DNA from: Chloroflexus sp. Y-396-1
GTDB lineage: Bacteria; Chloroflexota; Chloroflexia; Chloroflexales; Chloroflexaceae
Direction of reading: 5' to 3'
Length of the DNA stretch: 64,000 bases
Assembly (NCBI RefSeq): GCF_000516515.1
Contig: NZ_KI911784.1
Coordinates: forward strand, 4,068,633 to 4,132,632
Positions 22,690 to 55,573 of this stretch are shown one piece after another. Below the pieces are notes generated by a model. It was not told the DNA's origin. It saw only the letters and a program-made list of their open reading frames with translations, and did no database searches. The translations under genes were made by a program, and so were the position numbers. Every line of letters starts with the position of its first letter. The first letter of the stretch is position 1.

Positions 22690-23073
22690 ATGATCGATCC
22701 TCTCGTCCAACGTCTGCTTGAGCATGTACTCGATACGCCGACGAAGCTACACTTGCTCCTTATGTTTCACGAGCATCCACGCGCCGAGCTTACGGCATCG
22801 GCGATTGCCGAGCGGCTCTTTCGCGATATATGGAGTGTACAGCAAGCCTTAGAAGACCTGACTGCGGCGGGCTTTTTGTCGGTCGCTAATGTAGCCGCTG
22901 GTCAACCGGTCTATCGCTACACACCACCACCTGAGTGGCACGAAGCTATTCGCCGTCTCGTTCGCAGCTACAACGACCCCATTGAGCGCGATTTGATCCA
23001 GCGCACGATTCGCGATCTGTCTGTCTTCGCTTCGTTCCGGCGTAGTGAGCTGGAACGGTTTGAATTCGTCTGA
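22690..23073 (+). CDS. Winged helix-turn-helix transcriptional regulator
   Basis: 127 residues from ATG at 22690 (AAGGAG seven bases upstream). Helix-turn-helix core ASAIAERLFRDIWSVQQALE followed by DLTAAGFLSV and a wing (AAGQPVYRYTPPPE). MarR/ArsR-like size and layout; no sensor domain. Target unknown. It stands alone between asd and IS copy 2. Confidence 0.78.
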   Translation: MIDPLVQRLLEHVLDTPTKLHLLLMFHEHPRAELTASAIAERLFRDIWSVQQALEDLTAAGFLSVANVAAGQPVYRYTPPPEWHEAIRRLVRSYNDPIERDLIQRTIRDLSVFASFRRSELERFEFV

Positions 23074-23094
23074 GCAGTTTGCTCACCCCTGCCT

Positions 23095-23124
23095 GGTCTC
23101 ACCTCTCCCCGATAGGGTGAGACC
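23095..23124 (+). terminator. Hairpin after the winged-helix gene
   Basis: GGTCTCACC (23095-23103) pairs with GGTGAGACC (23116-23124), starting 21 nt after the stop codon. The position suits a terminator, but no T-run follows. Confidence 0.45.
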
Positions 23125-23192
23125 ACTCGCTGCAAAGGCATCGGCGTATTTAGCATTTCCAGGTGACTGCCGGGCTATCAGGGCTGCAATAA

Positions 23193-24101
23193 GAGCCTAT
23201 CCGAAAAACTGGTATACTTATCGTATGAGCACTGAACCAACACCCAAGCGCACGCGTGCGCGCCCACCAAACAACAAGACCACGACCGACTTTCGCATCT
23301 CGGACGACCTGTGGGCCGTGCTGGAACCGCTCCTGCCGGTCCGCGTGAACACCCATCGGTGTGGCGGCGGTCGTCCCCGCGTGTCCGATCGCCGCTGCGC
23401 CGACGCCATCTTTTACGTCCTCCGCACCGGCTGTCAGTGGGCGGCGTTAAACGCGACGGACCTGTGCCCCAAATCCACGGCGTATGATCGCTTTCGGGAG
23501 TGGGTCGCCGCTGGCGGGTTCCTGAAACGCTGGCAGGTCGGCGTCGAACAGTTTGATGAACTGAAAGGCATTGATTGGGACCGGCTGAGGATGGACGGGG
23601 CGATGACCACGGCGCCGCTAGGGGGAAAAACAACCGGCCCCCATCCAACCGACCGCGGGCAAGCGGGCGTCAAGCGGTCGTTGCTGACCGAGGGGCATGG
23701 CGTCCCCATCGGCGTGGCGATTGATGGAGCCAATCGCCACGATATGAAACCGGTGCGTGAGACGATCGAGCGCATCGTCGTGGCGCGACCGGAGCCGACG
23801 GAGGAGCGACCGCACGGCATGTGCCTGGATAAAGGCTATGATGATGCAGAAGTGCGCGCGACCTTGCGCGCCTTTGGCTTCACGGCGCACATTCGCAGTC
23901 GCGGCGCGGAAGCGACGGAGAACGCACGTGAAGCGGGCAGGCGTGCGCGGCGCTGGGTGGTTGAGCGCAGCCACAGCTGGCGCAATCGGTTCCGTCGTTT
24001 GCTGATACCCTGGGAGAAAAAGCCTGAGCATTATCTTGCCTTCCTCCACTTCGCCTGTGGCTTGATTGCCTTGCGTGCTGCCGGGTTATTCGGATAGGCT
24101 C
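23193..24101 (+). mobile_element. IS5-family insertion sequence, copy 2 (909 bp)
   Basis: Same 13-bp terminal repeats and the same length as copy 1. Left flank TAA, right flank TTA, so no simple target duplication. It marks a sharp change from the asd/regulator region to AT-rich DNA. Confidence 0.94.
23225..24097 (+). CDS. IS5-family DDE transposase (copy 2, intact)
   Basis: 290 residues, full DDE set as in copy 1 (Asp124, Asp202, Glu247). Differences from copy 1 include Leu for Arg80 (ATDLCPK), AEATENARE for EEAKENARE, and LLIPWEKK for LLIRWEKK. The frame is open upstream to 23045 through host DNA; the ATG 20 nt inside the left repeat is the start shared by all copies. Confidence 0.94.
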   Translation: MSTEPTPKRTRARPPNNKTTTDFRISDDLWAVLEPLLPVRVNTHRCGGGRPRVSDRRCADAIFYVLRTGCQWAALNATDLCPKSTAYDRFREWVAAGGFLKRWQVGVEQFDELKGIDWDRLRMDGAMTTAPLGGKTTGPHPTDRGQAGVKRSLLTEGHGVPIGVAIDGANRHDMKPVRETIERIVVARPEPTEERPHGMCLDKGYDDAEVRATLRAFGFTAHIRSRGAEATENAREAGRRARRWVVERSHSWRNRFRRLLIPWEKKPEHYLAFLHFACGLIALRAAGLFG

Positions 24102-24877: not shown

Positions 24878-27046
24878 ATGAGGAAGATTATATCTCGGTA
24901 TCATCGAATAATTACATTCGTACTTTTTTCTGCATTACTTATTTGGGGATGGCGTATAGGTAATCCTTTTACCAATATTCCTGGTTATAGCGATGCTCTC
25001 GAAGTAATTTGGGGAATTGAACAGTATTATAAGAGTATATTACAGGATCACACCTTGCCACTCTTTACTGATAGAATATTCTTCCCCGGCGGATTCTACT
25101 CTGCTACTCTTAACCATACGCCATTTTTATTCTTGATAGCGCAGCCTTTTCGGATTATTGGAGGACCGGCTTTTGCCTATAACTGCTTAGCTTTGCTAGC
25201 TTTAACTATCATATTTACTGGATCGTACCGTTTTCTCAGGATTTATGTGAGCCATCCCATCGCATCAATTGCAGCATTAATGCTCACGTTTTGGAATTTT
25301 CATTGGTTTCGGATCTTAGGCCATATACACGTTTTATTCATGCTATCTCTAGCGATATGGATGACTTATTTCTTGGTGTATTGGAAAGAAGGTAAAGGAT
25401 TTTCACATAGCAAAATAGCAATACTTAACGGCATCTTATGGGGATTGATGATTAACTTTTCGCTGTATAGTATCTTTATTGGGGGTTGGATAACTCTTCT
25501 GATATGTGGAAAGCGCGGAATCAGAATCTTATTGCAATCCGCAGTGATAGCATTATTATCTGGCAGCTTTACGATACTGCTGTACTATGACGGCGCTTCT
25601 AAGAGTCAATTTACTTATTTTGGGGCAACTCACTCAGCTTATTGGGGTGCAAGTATTAACAGTCTAATAATCCCTTCCGTTTTTCATCCCGTTGAACAGA
25701 TACGAAATTGGTCGCAATCAATCTATTCTGGACCATATAACGAGTCAGGAGTAGCAAACATAGGATTTGTTACCTTGCTACTCGCATTAGTTGGAACTAT
25801 AGCTATCTCAAGACAAAGAAAATTTCATAGCTATTCTTATCTAGTCCTTCTTAGCGTGGTGGGATTTGTTCTCGCACTGGGTCCGTTCCTACGTTGGAAT
25901 GGACAGTTTGTCTCCATGTGTATATTGGAACCACTAACAAGCCTAATTTGGCAAATCGGTCAAACCCTAAAACCGCAACTGTTTGATACGACATTACCAT
26001 CAGAGCTTCGTTGTGCTGTTCCACTGCCTGGTTTGCTTCTCAATGCCACTGTCCCATTCTGGGAAGGAGGACGCGTAGTATCACGGTATGCTATGGTCTC
26101 TGCCCTGGGACTTGTTCCTTTGGCAGCAATAGGGCTAGCCATGGTCCGACCAAGAATACGTGCATTTCTAATGATTCTTTGGTTACTGGAATTTCTTCCA
26201 AACCCCATTTACGGTGTACCGTTACCTACTCAGCCACATCCGGCTTATGTGCAAATTTCACAAAAGATACAGCCAGATGAGAGCATTGTAGAAGTTAGCG
26301 CTCATGGGTTACGAATTGGTGGTGAGGTTCTTTACAACTCTATGATGACTAACATACCAACAGTCAGTGGTACTGGGAGCTTTTACCCTATCCATACTAT
26401 TCCTATTTGGCAATACCTGATCAATTCATCAAGTTGGGCAGAAGAAGGTACAGTGGATGTACTACGACATTATGGAGTGCGCTTTGTACTGGTCCATCGT
26501 CTCAGTCGAGAAGAGGATTCCATGATAGAGATGATGAATCGAAACTCGAAACTTCATTTCGAGAAATGTTTTGATCAGCAGCCACAACCTTCGCCATGGA
26601 ACTTTCCAATTTGCGTCTTTGAGATAAAGGAAAGTAATGATAATTTAGTTGTACTGTTCCGCTCCAAAGGATGGTCTACTGAAGAGGAGTGGGGTATTTG
26701 GGCAGAAGGAACGGGATCAGAAGCTTCATTTATCTTATCACGACCGGAAGATCTACAAATATACATCAATGCAATCCCGTTCTGTTTGCAAGAGAAAAAT
26801 CAAGCGATTACTGTAATTATTAACAGCGTACAATTAATAAAGTATCGTTGGTCGAGTTGTAAACCTATATCAAAAACTATTATGATCCCTGGTGTTATTC
26901 TGAAATCAGGGATCAATAGAATTCAATTTGTATATGATTATGCCGCTCGTCCAATTGAAATTACGAATGGGCAGAATAAAGATAGCCGTTTATTATCAGT
27001 TGGATTTGCGAAATTAGAAATTAACAGAGTTGGGCTAAGAAAATGA
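24878..27046 (+). CDS. Large polytopic membrane protein, GT-C/YfhO-like
   Basis: 722 residues. An N-terminal membrane helix is followed by an extracytoplasmic loop with acidic residues (GYSDALEVIWGIEQYY), then about ten transmembrane helices to about residue 450, then a soluble beta-rich C-terminal part (about 470-722). This layout matches GT-C-fold glycosyltransferase or YfhO-like proteins that add sugars or modify polymers outside the membrane. ATG at 24878 has GGGGG four bases upstream. AT-rich codon use (many ATA, TTA) differs from chromosomal neighbours, a sign of transfer. Exact activity unknown. Confidence 0.65.
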   Translation: MRKIISRYHRIITFVLFSALLIWGWRIGNPFTNIPGYSDALEVIWGIEQYYKSILQDHTLPLFTDRIFFPGGFYSATLNHTPFLFLIAQPFRIIGGPAFAYNCLALLALTIIFTGSYRFLRIYVSHPIASIAALMLTFWNFHWFRILGHIHVLFMLSLAIWMTYFLVYWKEGKGFSHSKIAILNGILWGLMINFSLYSIFIGGWITLLICGKRGIRILLQSAVIALLSGSFTILLYYDGASKSQFTYFGATHSAYWGASINSLIIPSVFHPVEQIRNWSQSIYSGPYNESGVANIGFVTLLLALVGTIAISRQRKFHSYSYLVLLSVVGFVLALGPFLRWNGQFVSMCILEPLTSLIWQIGQTLKPQLFDTTLPSELRCAVPLPGLLLNATVPFWEGGRVVSRYAMVSALGLVPLAAIGLAMVRPRIRAFLMILWLLEFLPNPIYGVPLPTQPHPAYVQISQKIQPDESIVEVSAHGLRIGGEVLYNSMMTNIPTVSGTGSFYPIHTIPIWQYLINSSSWAEEGTVDVLRHYGVRFVLVHRLSREEDSMIEMMNRNSKLHFEKCFDQQPQPSPWNFPICVFEIKESNDNLVVLFRSKGWSTEEEWGIWAEGTGSEASFILSRPEDLQIYINAIPFCLQEKNQAITVIINSVQLIKYRWSSCKPISKTIMIPGVILKSGINRIQFVYDYAARPIEITNGQNKDSRLLSVGFAKLEINRVGLRK

Positions 27047-28253: not shown

Positions 28254-29165
28254 GAGCCTATCCGAAAAACTGGTATACTTTTATCGTATGAGCACTGAAC
28301 CAACACCCAAGCGCACGCGTGCGCGCACACCAAACAACAAGACCACGACCGACTTTCGCATCTCGGACGACCTGTGGGCCGTGCTGGAACCGCTCCTGCC
28401 GGTCCGCGTGAACACCCATCGGTGTGGCGGCGGTCGTCCCCGCGTGTCCGATCGCCGCTGCGCCGACGCCATCTTTTACGTCCTCCGCACCGGCTGTCAG
28501 TGGGCGGCGTTAAACGCGACGGACCGGTGCCCCAAATCCACGGCGTATGATCGCTTTCGGGAGTGGGTCGCCGCTGGCGGGTTCCTGAAACGCTGGCAGG
28601 TCGGCGTCGAACGGTTTGATGAACTGAAAGGCATTGATTGGGACCGGCTGAGGATGGACGGGGCGATGACCACGGCGCCGCTAGGGGGGGAAAACAACCG
28701 GCCCCCATCCAACCGATCACGGGAAAGCGGGCGTCAAGCGGTCGTTGCTGACCGAGGGGCATGGCGTCCCCATCGGCGTGGCGATTGATGGAGCCAATCG
28801 CCACGATATGAAACCGGTGCGTGAGACGATCGAGCGCATCGTCGTGGCGCGACCGGAGCCGACGGAGGAGCGACCGCACGGCATGTGCCTGGATAAAGGC
28901 TATGATGATGCAGAAGTGCGCGCGACCTTGCGCGCCTTTGGCTTCACGGCGCACATTCGCAGTCGCGGCGCGGAAGCGAAGGAGAACGCACGTGAAGCGG
29001 GCAGGCGTGCGCGGCGCTGGGTGGTTGAGCGCAGCCACAGCTGGCGCAATCGGTTCCGTCGTTTGCTGATACCCTGGGAGAAAAAGCCTGAGCATTATCT
29101 TGCCTTCCTCCACTTCGCCTGTGGCTTGATTGCCTTGCGTGCTGCCGGGTTATTCGGATAGGCTC
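28254..29165 (+). mobile_element. IS5-family insertion sequence, copy 3 (912 bp, frameshifted)
   Basis: Same terminal repeats as copies 1 and 2. It is 3 bp longer: two extra T before the transposase start (TATACTTTTATCG instead of TATACTTATCG) and one extra base in the G/A run at about 28683-28694. Left flank TTA, right flank TAA. Confidence 0.94.
28288..29161 (+). pseudogene. IS5-family transposase, copy 3, with +1 frameshift
   Basis: The first 130 or so codons match copies 1 and 2 up to APLGG; then GGGGGGGAAAA replaces GGGGGAAAAA, adding one base. The first frame ends at 28788 and the rest (from about 28691, with ATG at 28745) is in the next frame to the stop at 29159-29161. Asp124 is on one side; Asp202 and Glu247 on the other. 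Unless slippage on the G7A4 run restores the frame, no active enzyme is made. Confidence 0.85.
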
Positions 29166-47229: not shown

Positions 47230-47598
47230 ATGTTTCGTCAACTATTTCGTAACCTGCGTGAAGCACAGCAGAATCAGGTCGCAACGATGACGGTGCAAGA
47301 GTTGAAGACGCAATTGGAAGCCCACGCCCCAATAGTGCTGGTTGATGTGCGTCAGCCAGAGGAATTTGCTTACGATGGTCATGTCGCCGGAGCGCGCTTG
47401 CTACCTTTGCCGGTACTGGCAATGCGGTTAAACGAACTTCCGAAAGACCAGCCGATTGTCTGTATCTGTCGTTCAGGAAATCGCAGTCAGGTGGCCTGTG
47501 AAATGCTCCAACGCTATGGCTTTACCAATGTTATCAACGTTGTGGGTGGGATGATCGCCTGGCAACGCGCTGGTTATCCGGTCAATCGTCAGTCGTAG
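47230..47598 (+). CDS. Single-domain rhodanese
   Basis: 122 residues. Active loop CICRSGNRS with Cys80; preceding VLVDVRQPEEFAYDGHVAGA; end VINVVGGMIAWQRAGYPV. Moves sulfane sulfur to a thiophilic acceptor. Cytoplasmic (no signal). Its core is closely similar to the exported rhodanese at 50003 (both PIVCICRSGNRS), pointing to duplication inside the cluster. AAAGGA lies upstream of the ATG. Confidence 0.92.
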   Translation: MFRQLFRNLREAQQNQVATMTVQELKTQLEAHAPIVLVDVRQPEEFAYDGHVAGARLLPLPVLAMRLNELPKDQPIVCICRSGNRSQVACEMLQRYGFTNVINVVGGMIAWQRAGYPVNRQS

Positions 47599-48223: not shown

Positions 48224-49990
48224 ATGACACCCGTTTCAGCCCGGCAGCTTGGTGTACACGCTGCGCTGTTAGCGGCAATCTATCGATACCTTCCATTTCT
48301 CAACTGGCTGCGCCATTACCGTCGTGAACATCTACCGAGCGATGTCGTGGCAGGGATTGTGACAGCCATTATGCTCATCCCGCAGAGCATGGCTTATGCC
48401 CAGTTGGCCGGTCTGCCTCCCCAGATCGGCCTCTACGCCTCAGTTGCACCGCTCGTTGTATATGCCTTGCTTGGTACTTCCGGGCAGCTTTCCGTAGGGC
48501 CGGTGGCTATTACCTCATTGCTGGTGTTTAACGGGGTGAGTACGCTGGCCGATCCGGGGAGCGAGCGGTATCTGCAACTAGTGCTTTTACTGGCCTTCAT
48601 GGTCGGTGCAATGAAACTAACGTTAGGTGTACTGCGGTTAGGCGCGATTCTGAACTTTATCTCGCATCCAGTCCTGACGGCTTTTACCAGTGCTTCGGCG
48701 CTGATCATTGCGGTTGGTCAGTTGAAATATATTCTCGGTTACCGCATTGGCGGTGAACATCTGCACGAAACCATCATACAGGCTATCGCTGGCTTAAGCC
48801 AGATAAATCTGGTCACGTTCACCATCGGGCTGTTGAGTATCGTTCTGCTCGTCTTCTTCCGGCAGGGCTTGCGTCCGCTTTTGCGCCGCGTCGGTTTGCC
48901 ACCATTGGCAGTGACACTGATCGTTAGCGGTGCACCACTCTTAACCGTCATTTTGGGTATTCTGGTCGTGCAAGGATTGCAGCTCGATCAGTCTGCCCGC
49001 GTTGCTGTGGTGGGTGCGATTCCGCCCGGTATTTCGCCGATAAGTGTACCGCCGTTCGGAATGACCGACATGCAGGCGCTCTTACCGACAGCACTGACAA
49101 TTGTCCTGGTAAGCGTCGTCGAGTCGATTGCTGTGGCAAAGGCGTTAGCCAGTAAACGACGACAAGCTATCGATCCCGATCAGGAGTTAGTTGCCCTGGG
49201 TGCAGCGAACATTACTGCCAGCTTCTTCAGTGGCTATCCGGTTACCGGTGGCTTTGCTCGCTCGGTCGTTAATGCCCAGGCTGGTGCGGTCACCGGTCTG
49301 GCGTCGCTGGTAACAGCCCTTGGGATCGCGGTGATCTTGCTCTTTTTCACACCGATCTTTTACTACCTGCCGCAAGCTGTGCTGGCGGCGACAGTTATTG
49401 TGGCTGTTATCGGCCTGGTAGATCTGCAAGAACCGCTGCGCATCTGGCGTACCAATCGTGGCGATGCGTTTACCTGGCTTATCACCTTTCTGGGTGTGCT
49501 CACCCTGGGTATCGAAAACGGTATCTTTGCCGGTGTTGCCTCGGCCCTAATCCTCTACCTGTGGCGGACCAGTCGTCCACATATTGCGATTGTTGGTCGC
49601 CTTGGCAATAGCGAGGTATACCGCAACGTTGAGCGCCATCAGGTCAAGACCTGGCCACACGTTGTGGCAGTACGGGTTGATGAAAGTCTCTACTTTGCTA
49701 ACACGCGCTATCTTGAGAGTGCGTTGTTGCAGATCGTTGCCGAACGACCAGAGGTGAAACATCTGGTATTGATCGGTTCAGCTATCAACTTTATTGACTC
49801 GAGTGCACTCCACACCCTTGAACATCTTATTGATGAACTACGTGATGCCGGGGTTGAGTTTCACCTGGCTGACATTAAGGGACCGGTGATGGATCGGCTC
49901 AAACAGTCGGAGCTAATCAATAAAATCGGTTACGATCATATCCATATGACAACCCACGCCGCAATGCTGGCCCTGGGATGTAACGATTAA
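48224..49990 (+). CDS. SulP-family sulfate permease with STAS domain
   Basis: 588 residues. Signature DVVAGIVTAIMLIPQSMAYA (about 39-58) and LAGLPPQIGLYAS; about ten to twelve helices; SVVESIAVAKALASKRRQAI and GAANITASFFSGYPVTGGFARS; C-terminal STAS domain from about 450 (LYFANTRYLESALLQIV; VLIGSAINFIDSSALHTLE with the phospho-acceptor-like Ser). Imports sulfate or related anions, or exports sulfate/sulfite formed by sulfur oxidation; the direction is not inferable. GGGGAG upstream; 9 nt after the phosphatase gene. Confidence 0.92.
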   Translation: MTPVSARQLGVHAALLAAIYRYLPFLNWLRHYRREHLPSDVVAGIVTAIMLIPQSMAYAQLAGLPPQIGLYASVAPLVVYALLGTSGQLSVGPVAITSLLVFNGVSTLADPGSERYLQLVLLLAFMVGAMKLTLGVLRLGAILNFISHPVLTAFTSASALIIAVGQLKYILGYRIGGEHLHETIIQAIAGLSQINLVTFTIGLLSIVLLVFFRQGLRPLLRRVGLPPLAVTLIVSGAPLLTVILGILVVQGLQLDQSARVAVVGAIPPGISPISVPPFGMTDMQALLPTALTIVLVSVVESIAVAKALASKRRQAIDPDQELVALGAANITASFFSGYPVTGGFARSVVNAQAGAVTGLASLVTALGIAVILLFFTPIFYYLPQAVLAATVIVAVIGLVDLQEPLRIWRTNRGDAFTWLITFLGVLTLGIENGIFAGVASALILYLWRTSRPHIAIVGRLGNSEVYRNVERHQVKTWPHVVAVRVDESLYFANTRYLESALLQIVAERPEVKHLVLIGSAINFIDSSALHTLEHLIDELRDAGVEFHLADIKGPVMDRLKQSELINKIGYDHIHMTTHAAMLALGCND

Positions 49991-50002: not shown

Positions 50003-50413
50003 ATGCAACACGCTTTCAAATTCGTTGCGCTGTTCGTATTCGCCATCTTAACTGCGTGTGGGGCATCTACGCCCCCCCCCAGTGCAACGTCCACTCCAAA
50101 AGAGATAACCGTGGCTCAGTTGAAGACCATGCTTGATCAGAACGAAAACTTCGTGCTGCTTGATGTGCGGACTCCCGCCGAATTCGTGCAAGATGGACGA
50201 GTTGCACAATCAATACTTATTCCCTTGCAAGAGCTTGAACAGCGCTTGAATGAACTACCTACCGATAAGCCGATTGTCTGTATTTGCCGGTCGGGGAATC
50301 GTAGTGCTACGGCGTGTGATCTGCTAAGGTCACGCGGCTACGAGGCAATTAACGTTGCCGGTGGTATGCGAGCATGGAAAGCTGCTGGATATTCGATAGT
50401 ATTCGGCCAGTGA
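50003..50413 (+). CDS. Exported rhodanese lipoprotein
   Basis: 136 residues. Signal FKFVALFVFAILTACG with lipobox LTAC (Cys19), a short Pro/Thr linker, then a rhodanese domain with FVLLDVRTPAEFVQDGRV and active loop CICRSGNRS (Cys95). Anchored on the outer face of the membrane, it could accept sulfane sulfur from sulfide-oxidation products and hand it inward. Last gene of the cluster; a terminator follows. Confidence 0.9.
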   Translation: MQHAFKFVALFVFAILTACGASTPPPSATSTPKEITVAQLKTMLDQNENFVLLDVRTPAEFVQDGRVAQSILIPLQELEQRLNELPTDKPIVCICRSGNRSATACDLLRSRGYEAINVAGGMRAWKAAGYSIVFGQ

Positions 50414-50736: not shown

Positions 50737-51132
50737 TCACGATAGCCTGGGCCGAAACTTATAACCGTACACTAAGACGCCATCCTCACCGGTATCCATT
50801 AACCGTCGTGTGACCATCTCAACCGGCATACCAATTGTGAGTTCTGATTCGTCGCAATCAGTGAGCTGTGCGGTCACCAGCAGGCCTTCTTCTAACCGCA
50901 CCAGTGCTACCGGATAGACCCCAAAGCTGGTAAAGCCTTCTGGTGCCTGTCGTAGCACACTAAAGCTGTAGATTTCACCCCGTCCACTCAATTGATACGG
51001 CTCCCAATCGTTGGGGTCTTCATCGAGAGCCGGTGGCTGAGGCGGAAAGCGTACCTCACCAGTGTGGCGATGACGTTGTCCTTCAAGACGATAGCGGGGC
51101 ACACGATCCCGCCAGTGTCGCGCTATTTTCAT
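50737..51132 (-). CDS. DUF35-like OB-fold protein lacking zinc-ribbon cysteines
   Basis: 131 residues from ATG 51132, which overlaps the Yip1-like stop as ATGA. DUF35 proteins have an N-terminal zinc ribbon (YRL..x.C..C....FPPR..C..C) and a C-terminal OB fold; in archaea one bridges acetoacetyl-CoA thiolase and HMG-CoA synthase so that the intermediate is channelled. Here the ribbon region is VPRYRLEGQRHRHTGEVRFP: the frame and FPP are kept but no Cys remains. The OB part is intact (GRGEIYSFSVLRQAPEGF, YPVALVRLEEGLLVTAQL). Probably a structural partner of the thiolase-like and HMG-CoA synthase proteins of this operon. Confidence 0.82.
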   Translation of the reverse strand: MKIARHWRDRVPRYRLEGQRHRHTGEVRFPPQPPALDEDPNDWEPYQLSGRGEIYSFSVLRQAPEGFTSFGVYPVALVRLEEGLLVTAQLTDCDESELTIGMPVEMVTRRLMDTGEDGVLVYGYKFRPRLS

Positions 51133-51758
51133 GGTGCAAAACCTCCTGCAAAGATCGCGAGAGTAGCAGCAAGGCCAATCGCGATACACCAGAAGAAGAG
51201 ACCAATGACCAGCAGGATGATCGAAATATAGAGCGCCTTCTGCGATGGCAGGTTCATCCCAGACTGGATTGCCAAATAATTGAGATAAATCCCGTAAATG
51301 ACCAAGGCTAGTGAAAGGATCCAGCCCACAAGTGGGATAGAAGATACAATAAATTGGGCCACAGATAACGGTGACGAGAAGAGGGAGATACCCCAGGCCA
51401 ATTCGCCAAAGCTGCCAGTACCACCAAAGGCCCGACCTAGCAGGTAAATGAACCCCCAAATCACTAATGAGCTGATAATTGTGCCAAAGATCCCTCCGAA
51501 GACAGTAAAAATTGGATTGGATTGCTGAGCGATGGTTGTCTCGATCACATCTGGGGGTAACCCTTGAGCCTCAAGTTGCGCTCGAAGTTCCCCTATCTGA
51601 AAAGGGGATGTGATAGCCGAAATAATCCCATTGATAACACTGGCAATGGCCGCATAGATCAATGCCCAACCAAGATTATCCCGCTCGTGCCGCTCGAACG
51701 TTTGTACCGACGGATTGGTAAGAACCGCAACGCTACCGTTAATCATCTCTTGAATCAT
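51129..51758 (-). CDS. Yip1-domain membrane protein
   Basis: 209 residues from ATG 51758 (AGGAG upstream; codons to 51839 not needed). Five hydrophobic helices: WALIYAAIASVINGIISAI, IFTVFGGIFGTIISSLVIWG, ELAWGISLFSSPLSVAQFI, ILSLALVIYGIYLNYLAI and YISIILLVIGLFFWCIAIG, a Yip1-type arrangement. It lies between thiolase-like and DUF35-like genes, ATGA-coupled to the latter, so it may anchor that complex to the membrane or simply be co-expressed. No enzymatic motif. Confidence 0.78.
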   Translation of the reverse strand: MIQEMINGSVAVLTNPSVQTFERHERDNLGWALIYAAIASVINGIISAITSPFQIGELRAQLEAQGLPPDVIETTIAQQSNPIFTVFGGIFGTIISSLVIWGFIYLLGRAFGGTGSFGELAWGISLFSSPLSVAQFIVSSIPLVGWILSLALVIYGIYLNYLAIQSGMNLPSQKALYISIILLVIGLFFWCIAIGLAATLAIFAGGFAP

Positions 51759-51835
51759 GGGGTATGCTCCTGTATTGCAAACAGCGGAAGCAGCCATATT
51801 GTACCCCATGCAACGAATATTGTGAAGAGGATGGC

Positions 51836-53002
51836 TCATGATTCGCGAATCAAGACATGACTAACTGCCGTTGTACCAATACCTCCGAGCGATTGTGCGA
51901 ATCCAACACGAGCGTTGGTCACCTGAGTAGCACCGGCCTGACCACGAAGTTGTTGGGCAATCTCGATTACCTGATAGATACCGGTTGCGCCACCGACATC
52001 GCCACGTGCTTTGTAACCACCTGCCGTCGCAATTGGTGTCTTCCCGCCTGGGGTAATCGCTCCCTCGGCAGCATGACGCGGAGCAGTACCAGTTTCGTAA
52101 CAGCCGATTGCCTCAAGAGCCAGAGTTGCCGCTATTCCATGAGGGTCAGTCAGTTCCCACACATCAACATCACCGACACCTAAATGAGCGCGGCCAAGTG
52201 CAATATGGGCGCTGGCGCGGGCTGCACTCAGATCGAGTGGATTCCGTCGCCGGTGCAAGGCTGGATGGTCGGTCGCAACTGCTGCACCGGCAATGCGGAT
52301 TCGCACCCCATCAAGTTCACGGGCCAGATTCTCGTTCACAATCAATAATGCAGCAGCGCCATCGGCCAGCGTACTACAATCGAGCATATTGATCGGTGAG
52401 GCAATCTGGGCCGCCTTTCGGTATTTACTGGCATCTATCGGAAAGCGATACAGTGCCAGCGGATTCTTCGTGCCATTGGCATGAGCGTTGATCGGGAAGG
52501 GGGCAAAGGCATCAGCAGAGTAGCCGTATTCGTACATATAGCGACGCATAAGCATGGCCCACTGCGCGGTCAAGGTTACACCGTGCATTGCCTCTTCGTT
52601 GCTATCGGTTGCCATTGCTTGGGCCGCTTCGCTCTCGTCTTCCAGATGATCGGTGACCTTCTCAACCCCGATCACCAACGCGACCGGTAACCCATGCTGT
52701 ACTGCCTGCACCGCCTGATACAGCGCTAGTGCACCGCTCGCACCGGCGGCTTCAACGCGCAGAGCCGGAATTGAGGCTGACAGACCTAATATGCCGGCCA
52801 GATATGCGCCAAGTTGACCCTGCCCGTACAACTCCTCGCTGTAGGCACTACCAACGTAGAGGGCGCCAATGTGATGCGGAGCAATACCTGGGACATTCAT
52901 CAGTGCAGTACGCGCTGCTTCGCTCGCCAGATCGGCCAAACTGCGCTGATAATGCTCACCAACGGCGGTTGCGCCCATCCCTGCAATATAGACATTTGAC
53001 AT
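51836..53002 (-). CDS. Archaeal-type thiolase homologue with all catalytic residues replaced
   Basis: 388 residues, full thiolase fold of the archaeal acetoacetyl-CoA thiolase/SCP-x branch (DLASEAARTAL, VALVIGVEKVTDH, RRYMYEYGYSADAFA, CSTLADGAAALLIV, GGATGIYQVIEIAQQL). The nucleophile position in VEAACASG-type motifs is Gly87 here (VEAAGASG; codon GGT at 52742-52744 instead of TGT). The HDxF histidine is Thr285 (WELTDPHG). The GHP histidine is Asp335 (KARGDVGGATG). With three catalytic positions lost it should not condense acetyl-CoA. It is 15 nt after an intact HMG-CoA synthase gene, so a scaffold role is likely. RBS AGAGG upstream. Confidence 0.88.
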   Translation of the reverse strand: MSNVYIAGMGATAVGEHYQRSLADLASEAARTALMNVPGIAPHHIGALYVGSAYSEELYGQGQLGAYLAGILGLSASIPALRVEAAGASGALALYQAVQAVQHGLPVALVIGVEKVTDHLEDESEAAQAMATDSNEEAMHGVTLTAQWAMLMRRYMYEYGYSADAFAPFPINAHANGTKNPLALYRFPIDASKYRKAAQIASPINMLDCSTLADGAAALLIVNENLARELDGVRIRIAGAAVATDHPALHRRRNPLDLSAARASAHIALGRAHLGVGDVDVWELTDPHGIAATLALEAIGCYETGTAPRHAAEGAITPGGKTPIATAGGYKARGDVGGATGIYQVIEIAQQLRGQAGATQVTNARVGFAQSLGGIGTTAVSHVLIRES

Positions 53003-53017
53003 AATAGACCTCTTGTC

Positions 53018-54067
53018 TTATCCCATCACCAGCTTGCCACGCCATTTGGCGTAGATAGCGTAATCAATCATCACTGCCCGCTTCAGATATGTAGCTGTAA
53101 GTGGTGCTCGTTCGCGGCGTTCCAGAACTGCCTCGGTAACGGTTAGGGCATAGGCATCGGAACCGGCGCCACTGCCATAAGTGGTCATAAAGATCGTATC
53201 ACCTGGTTGGGCGATATCGAGGATTGCACAGAGACCTATGAGAGCTGCCCCCGAATAGGTATTGCCGATCTGTGGACTGAGCAACCCGGGCGCTATTTGC
53301 CGATCGGTAAAACCGAGTCGTTTAGCAACTGCTTGAGGAAACTTGGCGTTGGGCTGGTGAAAAACAGCATAGGTGAAATCGGCAGCCGTGCGACCCAACT
53401 GCCGCAGTAATTCACCGGCTGCTGATTGAATCTGGTGGAAGTAGGCCGGTTCACCGGTGAAGCGATTGCCGTGCACTGGGTACGGACGATCAGCGCGTCG
53501 GTAGAAGTCGGGAGTATCGGTGACATACGAGATCGTGGCATCGACGGTTGCCAATGCCTCTTCCGCCGGGCCAACGATCAGGGCAGCGGCGCCAGCAGAA
53601 GCAGTATACTCCAGGGCATCACCGGGACGACCCTGCGCGGTATCGGCGCCGATTGCCAGTGCGTAACGTTGCATTCCACTGCCTACCAATGCCATTGCGG
53701 CAGTTAATGCCTCGGAACCGGCCTTACAGGCAAATTCCCAGTCGGCAGCGCTTACCCACGGACCTACCCCCAGTGCATCTGCAACAACTGTTCCTGATGG
53801 TTTTACACTGTACGGATGGCTTTCGCTCCCAATCCACACTGCTCCCAGCGCTGAAGCTGGGATGGCGGCGCGGGCAAGTGCGTTACGCGCTGCTTCGATA
53901 GACATCGTAATTGTATCTTCATCAGGGCCGGGCACACTCTTAGCTTCAACTGGCGTACCGCTTTGTCCGTCCGTCCAGATTCGGGCTATTTCACGAGCCG
54001 CAATCCGGTAGCGTGGGATGTATGTCCCGTACCCAATAATGCCAACCGGCTGTTGTGGTTTCATCAT
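53018..54067 (-). CDS. Hydroxymethylglutaryl-CoA synthase (archaeal type)
   Basis: 349 residues. Condenses acetyl-CoA with acetoacetyl-CoA to HMG-CoA. Catalytic set looks complete: Cys114 in DWEFACKAGSEAL, His237 in YAVFHQPNAKFP, the Glu in WIGSESHPYSVKP, plus GNTYSGAALIGL. The N-terminus VGIIGYGTYIPRYRI is the usual archaeal/bacterial form. In methanogenic archaea this enzyme is complexed with a thiolase and a DUF35 protein, and homologues of both follow here. GGAG eight bases upstream of the ATG. Confidence 0.93.
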   Translation of the reverse strand: MMKPQQPVGIIGYGTYIPRYRIAAREIARIWTDGQSGTPVEAKSVPGPDEDTITMSIEAARNALARAAIPASALGAVWIGSESHPYSVKPSGTVVADALGVGPWVSAADWEFACKAGSEALTAAMALVGSGMQRYALAIGADTAQGRPGDALEYTASAGAAALIVGPAEEALATVDATISYVTDTPDFYRRADRPYPVHGNRFTGEPAYFHQIQSAAGELLRQLGRTAADFTYAVFHQPNAKFPQAVAKRLGFTDRQIAPGLLSPQIGNTYSGAALIGLCAILDIAQPGDTIFMTTYGSGAGSDAYALTVTEAVLERRERAPLTATYLKRAVMIDYAIYAKWRGKLVMG

Positions 54068-54253: not shown

Positions 54254-55573
54254 TTAGTTACGGGTGGGATCGCCGACGCGCCGTCCTTCAAGCTCGGCGA
54301 TAATCTCTTCGGCGCGAGTCAGCTTGATATTGCGTTCGGCAACCATTCGCCGGGCAACTTCATCGACCAGCGTGCCACTAGCGCCAGCGGCCATCGCAAT
54401 CTGACGGGCATGTAAGCTCATATGACCCTGCTGAATACCTTCGCAGGCCAGTGCTCGCATCGCAGCCAGATTATTGGCCAACCCCGCCGCTACACAGACT
54501 TCTGCCAGCTCGCCGGCACTGCGTACACCAAGGAGTTTCAATGCAGCCTGTGCCGTAGGATGAACCTTTGTCGCACCACCGACAATACCGACTGCCAGCG
54601 GCATTTCCAGGGTACCGACCAGGTTCCCCTGTTCATCGCGCTCCCAGTGTGAGAGGGAGGTATAGCGACCGTTGCGACTAGCGTAAGCATGGGCGCCAGC
54701 CTCAACCGCTCGCCAGTCGTTACCGGTAGCGACCAGCACCGGATCGATCCCGTTCATAATGCCCTTGTTGTGCGTCGCTGCCCGATAGGGATCAACGACT
54801 GCAAAGGCGTAAGCCCAGAGAATACCTTCAACGACTTCCTCACCGCTGAGACCGTCACGGGCCAGTGAGGCTGCCGGTACCACACAACGAGCACGAGCCA
54901 ACCGGCGGTCGGTCAAGTTCGAGAGGATGCGCAGGTATACGCGCCCTCCGGTCATCTCAGCCAGCAGCGGTGCGACCGCCTCGGCCATGGTATTCACGGC
55001 ATTCGCCCCCATTGCATCGCGGCAATCGACAATCAAGTGAACGACCAGCATTGGCCCCATGGGGCTAGTTGGGAAGAAGCGTACCTCAACATCGCGAGCG
55101 CCACCACCGAGACTGACCAGTGATCGGCTTTGAGCATTCGCTAGCGCGAGAATCTCTTCTTTACGCGACAGGATGGTCTGGCGGGCCTGATCGGGATCGC
55201 TAATATTAACCAATTGAACCTGGCCAATCATCAACGGCTCGGTGCTACTCGTCTCAAACCCACCACCATCGCGTACCATACGTGCAGCGTAACTGGCCCC
55301 GGCCACGATTGATGGCTCTTCAACCACCATTGGTATCAGATAGTCGCGGCCATTAATACGGAAGTTGGTCGCAATTCCGAGTGGTAGGTTGTATGTACCA
55401 ACGACATTCTCAATCATCTTGTCGGCGCGTTCGATAGTGAGTGCACCACCCTGACCGCCGTGCAAAGCGCGTAAATCTTCATCTAACAATCCATCAAAGG
55501 ACTTAACCATCTGTAGTCGCTCAAATGGATTAAGTTGATAAAACCCTTGTAAGCGAGAATTCTTGGTCCCCAT
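54254..55573 (-). CDS. mvaA: Hydroxymethylglutaryl-CoA reductase, class II
   Basis: Reduces HMG-CoA to mevalonate. 439 residues, the class II size without membrane anchor. Catalytic residues as in Pseudomonas mevalonii: Glu in [14 protein letters not shown], Lys in [13 protein letters not shown], Asp in [16 protein letters not shown], His in [13 protein letters not shown]; nucleotide motif [25 protein letters not shown]. Class II enzymes are often NADH-dependent and degradative, but here the neighbour is HMG-CoA synthase, so a biosynthetic role is more likely. First gene of the operon; AAAGGAGG upstream of the ATG. Confidence 0.95.

Follow-up and report, generated by a model that had tools for sequence, protein, structure and literature searches.

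A thiolase homologue without its catalytic residues, retained beside an archaeal-type HMG-CoA synthase in Chloroflexus, is probably a non-catalytic subunit of the synthase complex

Introduction

The thiolase, HMG-CoA synthase and DUF35 protein of Methanothermococcus form one complex, described in PMC6392133, PMC12329534 and PMC6996347. Its reported advantage, according to a passage of PMC12329534, is that acetoacetyl-CoA is passed from the thiolase to the synthase without release, and in the structure 6esq a passage of PMC6392133 places CoA at the interface of all three proteins. Glu82 and Cys114 are named as key residues of archaeal HMG-CoA synthase in a section of PMC6392133, which also covers PhlABC: there the key Cys and Glu are missing from the synthase-like subunit PhlA, and Cys88 of the thiolase subunit PhlC is present and was observed in a partly acetylated state. 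As for DUF35, an excerpt of PMC12329534 gives three zinc-binding Cys as conserved in other DUF35 homologues, including those of such complexes, and the same excerpt gives YDHF/YDCY as the aldolase motif of Ltp2 and Sal.

Here we describe a locus in which the same three families occur together and the thiolase homologue has lost its catalytic residues. Among titles, abstract openings and passages in the open-licence literature we found no description of a Cys-less thiolase beside HMG-CoA synthase. Kanno et al. (2024), reportedly on a mevalonate pathway of archaeal type in a member of the Chloroflexota, and Vogeli et al. (2018) could each bear on novelty.

Results

The locus lies in a stretch of 64,000 nucleotides from Chloroflexus sp. 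Y-396-1, called the window throughout. The genes for the thiolase homologue, HMG-CoA synthase and DUF35 are all present together, with a Yip1 gene separating the thiolase from DUF35:

54254..55573, minus strand: HMG-CoA reductase, 439 aa, upstream (PF00368 394.8 bits and TIGR00532 446.1 bits, both above cut-off)
53018..54067, minus strand: archaeal-type HMG-CoA synthase, 349 aa (TIGR00748 495.7 bits, cut-off 353.35)
51836..53002, minus strand: putative thiolase-fold pseudoenzyme, 388 aa, ATG ORF without internal stop (G87/T285/D335)
51129..51839, minus strand: Yip1-domain membrane protein between thiolase homologue and DUF35 (PF04893 81.6 bits, cut-off 28.6)
50737..51132, minus strand: DUF35 protein, ATG at 51132 (PF01796 77.3 bits, cut-off 27.1)

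Only 15 bases separate the stop of the HMG-CoA synthase gene from the start of the thiolase homologue. The Yip1 ORF as listed overlaps both the thiolase homologue and DUF35 by a few bases, and it may begin further in; by tblastn, many same-family loci (e.g. L088-L107) have a match to this ORF close to the thiolase, and none was seen at L108, L112, L113, L115 and L116. The HMG-CoA reductase matches a model named 'degradative' (TIGR00532) despite the HMG-CoA synthase gene next door. Elsewhere in the window, two very similar ORFs that by eye are transposase-like (23045-24097 and 28288-29161, plus strand, the latter broken into two frames) enclose DNA of about 41% GC that holds a large ORF, again by eye membrane-protein-like (24878-27046), and rhodanese-like ORFs (47230-47598 and 50003-50413, plus strand) flank a SulP-transporter-like ORF (48224-49990), all three named by eye.

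The HMG-CoA synthase has 6esq_I as its best PDB match (E 3.4e-122) and contains E82, C114 and H237, the last of which we take to be the third key residue. With TIGR00748 above its cut-off, these residues bear out the claim of a preliminary description of this DNA, made from the sequence alone, that the adjoining synthase is intact. That description had also given the ORF of the thiolase homologue (51836-53002, minus strand) exactly. Its product is a full-length archaeal-type thiolase of 388 aa that passes the Pfam cut-offs for PF00108 (Thiolase_N, 63.1 against 26.4) and PF22691 (Thiolase_C_1, 132.6 against 28). Compared with solved structures, an AlphaFold2 model with a mean pLDDT of 94.8 came closest to 6esq_A, the thiolase from the Methanothermococcus complex (383 residues aligned at an rmsd of 1.3 Å, Z 62.2), in agreement with the complete thiolase fold proposed earlier.

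Three thiolases of known structure, 7yvy, 6esq and 7pxp (BbsB), served for alignment; all have Cys/His/His (C/H/H) at the catalytic positions. The Chloroflexus protein has G87 at the Cys nucleophile, T285 at the HDxF His and D335 at the GHP His, confirming both the three replacements and the motifs VEAAGASG, ELTDPHG and GGYKARGDVGG as first read. Below, copies without the nucleophile are called dead and C/H/H copies live. At the positions of W148 and H288, N and F are found in live relatives, and the homologue, reading T285-D-P-H, has no counterpart of the Tyr in the aldolase motif (YDHF/YDCY). Although the thiolase fold matches, we rejected filing the protein as an acetoacetyl-CoA thiolase: it lacks the defining C/H/H, and its score with NF053570 (archaeal acetoacetyl-CoA thiolase) is 279.5 bits, far below the 600-bit cut-off. 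With NF004720 it scores 328.6 bits, likewise far below a cut-off of 420 bits.

The replacements are shared by close relatives. All eight distinct sequences of the genus (the window, L001-L004 and L092-L094) are G/T/D, and the nucleophile Cys is absent from 66/66 distinct operon-type sequences of the same order, which we take to be Chloroflexales from the named loci within it, all Chloroflexus, and from general taxonomy. A sequencing error or a lone mutant is thereby ruled out. Gly stands at the nucleophile position in 64 of the 66, Thr in one, and one has a deletion; residue 285 is T in 37, S in 25, C in two and H in two, and residue 335 is D in 62 and N in four. W148 and H288 are invariant across the same 66 sequences, as are N and F across 78/78 C/H/H copies. 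The preliminary description had proposed looking for C/H/H in close relatives; none was found in the order, and C/H/H same-operon orthologues appear in more distant Chloroflexota families.

Among live copies, 96 columns reach 95% conservation or more; in dead copies 54 of these are still conserved to at least 90%, and 18 fall below 50%. The 18 include 87, 148, 285, 287, 288, 330, 335, 336, 337 and 340, of which 87, 285, 287, 288, 335, 336, 337 and 340 are the catalytic motifs themselves, and judging from these motifs the lost columns would cluster in the pocket. Because W148/H288 are invariant in 66/66 same-order sequences, the pocket appears to be altered in a fixed manner in the window's order, for which simple decay would be no explanation. 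Just five positions tell live copies inside the operon apart from live ones outside it, and one of the five is retained in most dead copies, a comparison that yields no clear signature of an interface.

Within the genus, the dead thiolase has a median dN/dS of 0.053 (range 0.033-0.068, 23/28 pairs usable), and its partners HMG-CoA synthase and DUF35 have values of 0.029 (25/28 pairs) and 0.025 (19/28 pairs); among pairs at 80-98% identity dead operon copies have a ratio of 0.082, live ones in the operon 0.095 and live ones outside it 0.047, all of these values being rough because synonymous distances are near or above 1. The ratios place the dead thiolase under strong purifying selection.

The thiolase homologue is not the only altered partner. 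DUF35 (50737-51132) keeps its OB-fold domain and has 6esq DUF35 chains as its best PDB matches, and none of the four zinc-ribbon Cys is present (GQRHRHTG...); its zf-ChsH2 score is 16.9 bits, below the cut-off of 23.2. When 131 DUF35 sequences were aligned, 42/42 of those with a live thiolase kept all four Cys, whereas with a dead thiolase 23 kept four and 66 had none, and the 66 Cys-free sequences are exactly the same-order ones (66/66). In the window's order, two of the three partners, thiolase and DUF35, are thus without hallmark residues, and those of the synthase are kept. As a cause of the thiolase loss, Cys loss in DUF35 is unsupported, as 23 dead-copy loci keep all four Cys. At 23/111 dead-copy loci, versus 3/44 live-copy loci, the stretch examined yielded no DUF35 gene, so the thiolase, synthase and DUF35 genes are not always close together.

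To describe the spread of such operons, a first contig scan used the thiolase homologue as query and covered the best 80 of 128 relatives. Since this sample is biased towards thiolases like the query, we searched 400 Chloroflexota genomes with HMG-CoA synthase (E <= 1e-60, completeness at least 80). The archaeal-type HMG-CoA synthase was found in 93/400. Its partner thiolase lacks the nucleophile in 77/93 synthase genomes and has Cys/His/His in 16/93. In 92 of these genomes the partner was read from fetched stretches (77 without Cys, 15 C/H/H), and in the 93rd (G406) a C/H/H thiolase adjoins DUF35 on a different contig from the synthase. Nucleophile loss occurs in 11 of 18 families by group code. 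An archaeal-type thiolase is present in 93/93 synthase genomes and directly downstream of the synthase in 91/93, the thiolase lying on a separate contig in G034 and G406. HMG-CoA synthase itself retains E/C/H in 148/148 sequences, among them 107/107 with a dead thiolase partner. In five same-order genomes (G039, G103, G482, G489 and G492) there was no thiolase match at E <= 1e-30.

For the thiolases we compared 196 distinct sequences of at least 300 aa, shorter ones and eight identical copies being excluded. Beside the synthase (n=156), 112 lack the Cys, 43 are C/H/H and one is C/H/N; the states include GTD (33), GSD (24), GHF (20) and DHN (9), as well as DHH, ESF, GTN, GYN, QDN, SHD, NHH and others. 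Away from the synthase, with enough upstream sequence (n=32), 30 are C/H/H, the two exceptions being L100, a same-family orthologue adjoining DUF35, and L128, with Thr at the Cys position. The eight thiolases at contig ends comprise five C/H/H and three without Cys. L128 belongs with L129, L130 and L219 to a separate thiolase-fold lineage that has Thr at the nucleophile position (AATATGAA), retains both His and was not seen adjoining the synthase. L220 and L221 (genome G214) are further thiolase-fold proteins, with Gly at the nucleophile position.

We then considered where acetoacetyl-CoA might come from. The window's genome (one contig, 4,890,986 bases) holds three canonical thiolases with complete motifs (C-G/A-S-G, NEAF, GHP, CxGGG). 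An intact archaeal-type paralogue was not found in this genome, where the query matches only itself at E <= 1e-20. A search for canonical thiolases (PF02803) covered 80 of the 93 synthase genomes, the 13 left out being 12 dead and one live. A canonical thiolase occurs elsewhere in 64/65 genomes with a dead operon copy versus 9/15 with a live one (Fisher p 1.0e-4, a value weakened by kinship because the six live-copy genomes without a canonical thiolase represent three families). The lone dead-copy genome without a match, G384, is a draft of 92% completeness in 310 contigs, and a strong Thiolase_N match besides the operon copy is present in 8/8 other searched genomes of its genus. These counts fit a rule by which the operon thiolase may die where another thiolase can make acetoacetyl-CoA. 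The mevalonate route is very likely needed, because class Chloroflexi is without homologues of the DXP pathway according to a passage of PMC3857490, and two Chloroflexi representatives would rely solely on the mevalonate pathway, a DXR-II gene being present nonetheless, according to a passage of PMC3847144.

To follow the history of the losses, thiolase trees were built with the altered columns removed and archaeal thiolases as root, from 103 representatives of the 196. Near-copies (>78% identity and same state) were left out, L186, L128 and L129 were excluded from the rooted trees, and the careful thiolase tree was additionally made without 7pxp and 4yzo. In the rooted trees the Cys-less rows nest inside Cys-bearing operon thiolases, and C/H/H same-operon orthologues occur in distant Chloroflexota families; for both reasons the ancestor of the operon thiolase was most likely active. 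The quick thiolase tree has three changes, one of which is the Sulfolobus outgroup, the careful tree has four, two of them forced, and the HMG-CoA synthase tree has seven, three of them forced. A single origin of all 61 Cys-less rows was rejected with L032 included (p-AU 0.0044) and was not rejected without L032 (p-AU 0.46). Taken together, the thiolase trees, the AU tests and the synthase tree support at least two losses, with up to about seven possible; because fast-evolving rows may attract each other, a solitary origin cannot be assigned with confidence to further Cys-less rows. The variety of replacement residues had at first suggested many independent losses, an impression set aside in favour of this range, the thiolase trees giving three and four changes and the synthase tree seven.

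Discussion

We consider it probable that the thiolase homologue is a pseudoenzyme kept as a structural or CoA-site subunit of the synthase complex, with acetoacetyl-CoA supplied by another thiolase. The ancestral protein would have been an archaeal-type acetoacetyl-CoA thiolase that joined HMG-CoA synthase and DUF35 in a single complex. In most sampled operon-bearing Chloroflexota lineages, a canonical thiolase elsewhere in the genome would have taken over the condensation of two acetyl-CoA, and the nucleophile Cys would then have been lost from the operon thiolase, in many lineages together with one or both His. We propose that the archaeal-type synthase needs the thiolase body as a structural partner, and probably also as part of a shared CoA-binding site, and that the operon thiolase would for this reason not be deletable; as CoA lies at the three-protein interface in 6esq, losing the body would remove part of the CoA site. 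The dead thiolase would hold HMG-CoA synthase and DUF35 in a working arrangement, acetoacetyl-CoA would enter from outside, and the chemistry would be done by the synthase only. The best support for such a subunit is that, in 93 genomes, the synthase gene never appears without a thiolase-fold partner. From synteny and fold we infer the role as scaffold or CoA site; complex formation, the structural requirement, CoA binding and the source of acetoacetyl-CoA are likewise what we infer. The preliminary description had suggested a selected non-catalytic protein, which is favoured by loss throughout the order (66/66), dN/dS of about 0.05 and the intact synthase partner. Its proposal that acetoacetyl-CoA comes from elsewhere is favoured at the level of sequence by the three canonical thiolases of this genome and by the presence of another thiolase in 64/65 dead-copy genomes.

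The best rival, which we regard as unlikely, is that the protein is neofunctionalised, its pocket having been rebuilt for another acyl-CoA reaction (e.g. aldol-type, as in Ltp2/Sal) or for acyl-CoA sensing that regulates the synthase. Enzymes do occur among thiolase-fold partners of DUF35 whose active site is altered, as PMC12329534 describes for the aldolases TcLtp2 and CtSal, and the presence of W148/H288 in 66/66 same-order sequences, against N/F in 78/78 C/H/H copies, is more regular than decay alone would produce and may indicate that the pocket was rebuilt for a task of its own. However, the aldolase Tyr is replaced (T-D-P-H) and Tyr stands at position 285 in just 3/196 rows (L155, L162 and L196), the Cys replacement varies by lineage (G, D, E, S, N, Q or T), in no column do 90% of all dead copies agree on a new residue, and the gene remains directly downstream of the synthase. 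We think it quite unlikely that the dead thiolase and the zinc-less DUF35 make up a rebuilt, non-catalytic regulatory module in which HMG-CoA synthase is gated through the binding of an acyl-CoA, or of some other metabolite, in the W148/H288 pocket; were this so, a catalytic subunit would have turned allosteric where an essential pathway begins.

It would surprise us if the protein still supplied acetoacetyl-CoA itself, some thiolase activity having survived by means of a relocated nucleophile or of different acid/base residues: C209 is found in 59/66 same-order sequences and could be thought of in this role, but it is absent from the other 7/66 and from about half of the 117 dead rows, no Cys column is universal, and canonical thiolases are at hand. 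We give hardly any credence to a decaying gene carried along in the operon, a pseudogene in the making. The catalytic residues are gone and the L207 lineage has a deletion across the Cys motif, as such decay would have it; the genus dN/dS of 0.033-0.068, the open frames and the retention in 93/93 synthase genomes all speak against it. A subunit of the synthase complex, non-catalytic and kept for its body, thus remains our preferred reading.

In most of the sampled Chloroflexota genomes that have the synthase, the genes stay together after the catalytic residues of the first enzyme have been lost, and therefore something other than channelling would hold them together. Live and dead versions of the operon thiolase exist in related families, which makes a direct comparison possible. 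As the curated models that come closest carry the name thiolase or acetyl-CoA acetyltransferase, mis-annotation is easy; judged by their residues, proteins like the dead thiolase are very likely unable to carry out the annotated thiolase reaction.

Among known systems, the nearest is the Methanothermococcus complex (6esq), which consists of the same three families and is the top match of the synthase and DUF35 by sequence and of the thiolase by structure. Its thiolase is C/H/H and its DUF35 has CxxC Cys, whereas the Chloroflexus thiolase is G/T/D, its DUF35 lacks the zinc-ribbon Cys, and a complex is here suggested by the genes. ST0096, a thiolase-like protein of Sulfolobus tokodaii (4yzo), has the thiolase fold with Ser at the nucleophile position and resembles the Chloroflexus protein in its changed Cys, but unlike it keeps both His. 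The aldolases Ltp2-ChsH2(DUF35) and Sal-Shy(DUF35) (6ok1, 9myr) are structural matches in which a DUF35-bound thiolase fold has an altered active site. In contrast to the Chloroflexus protein, which lacks the catalytic Tyr and has a synthase as partner, Ltp2 and Sal are enzymes with that Tyr (YDHF/YDCY) and a hydratase partner. MucABC (9vbo) is alike by PDB title and matches only. In principle, the closest parallel is the Friedel-Crafts acylase PhlABC of Pseudomonas protegens (5m3k), with the same three-subunit architecture and one subunit without catalytic residues. It is a mirror image of the present case: in PhlABC the synthase-like subunit is dead and the thiolase live, whereas in Chloroflexus the thiolase is dead and the synthase residues are kept. 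Together, the two suggest that, in this three-subunit architecture, catalysis can be given up in either half with the body of that half kept.
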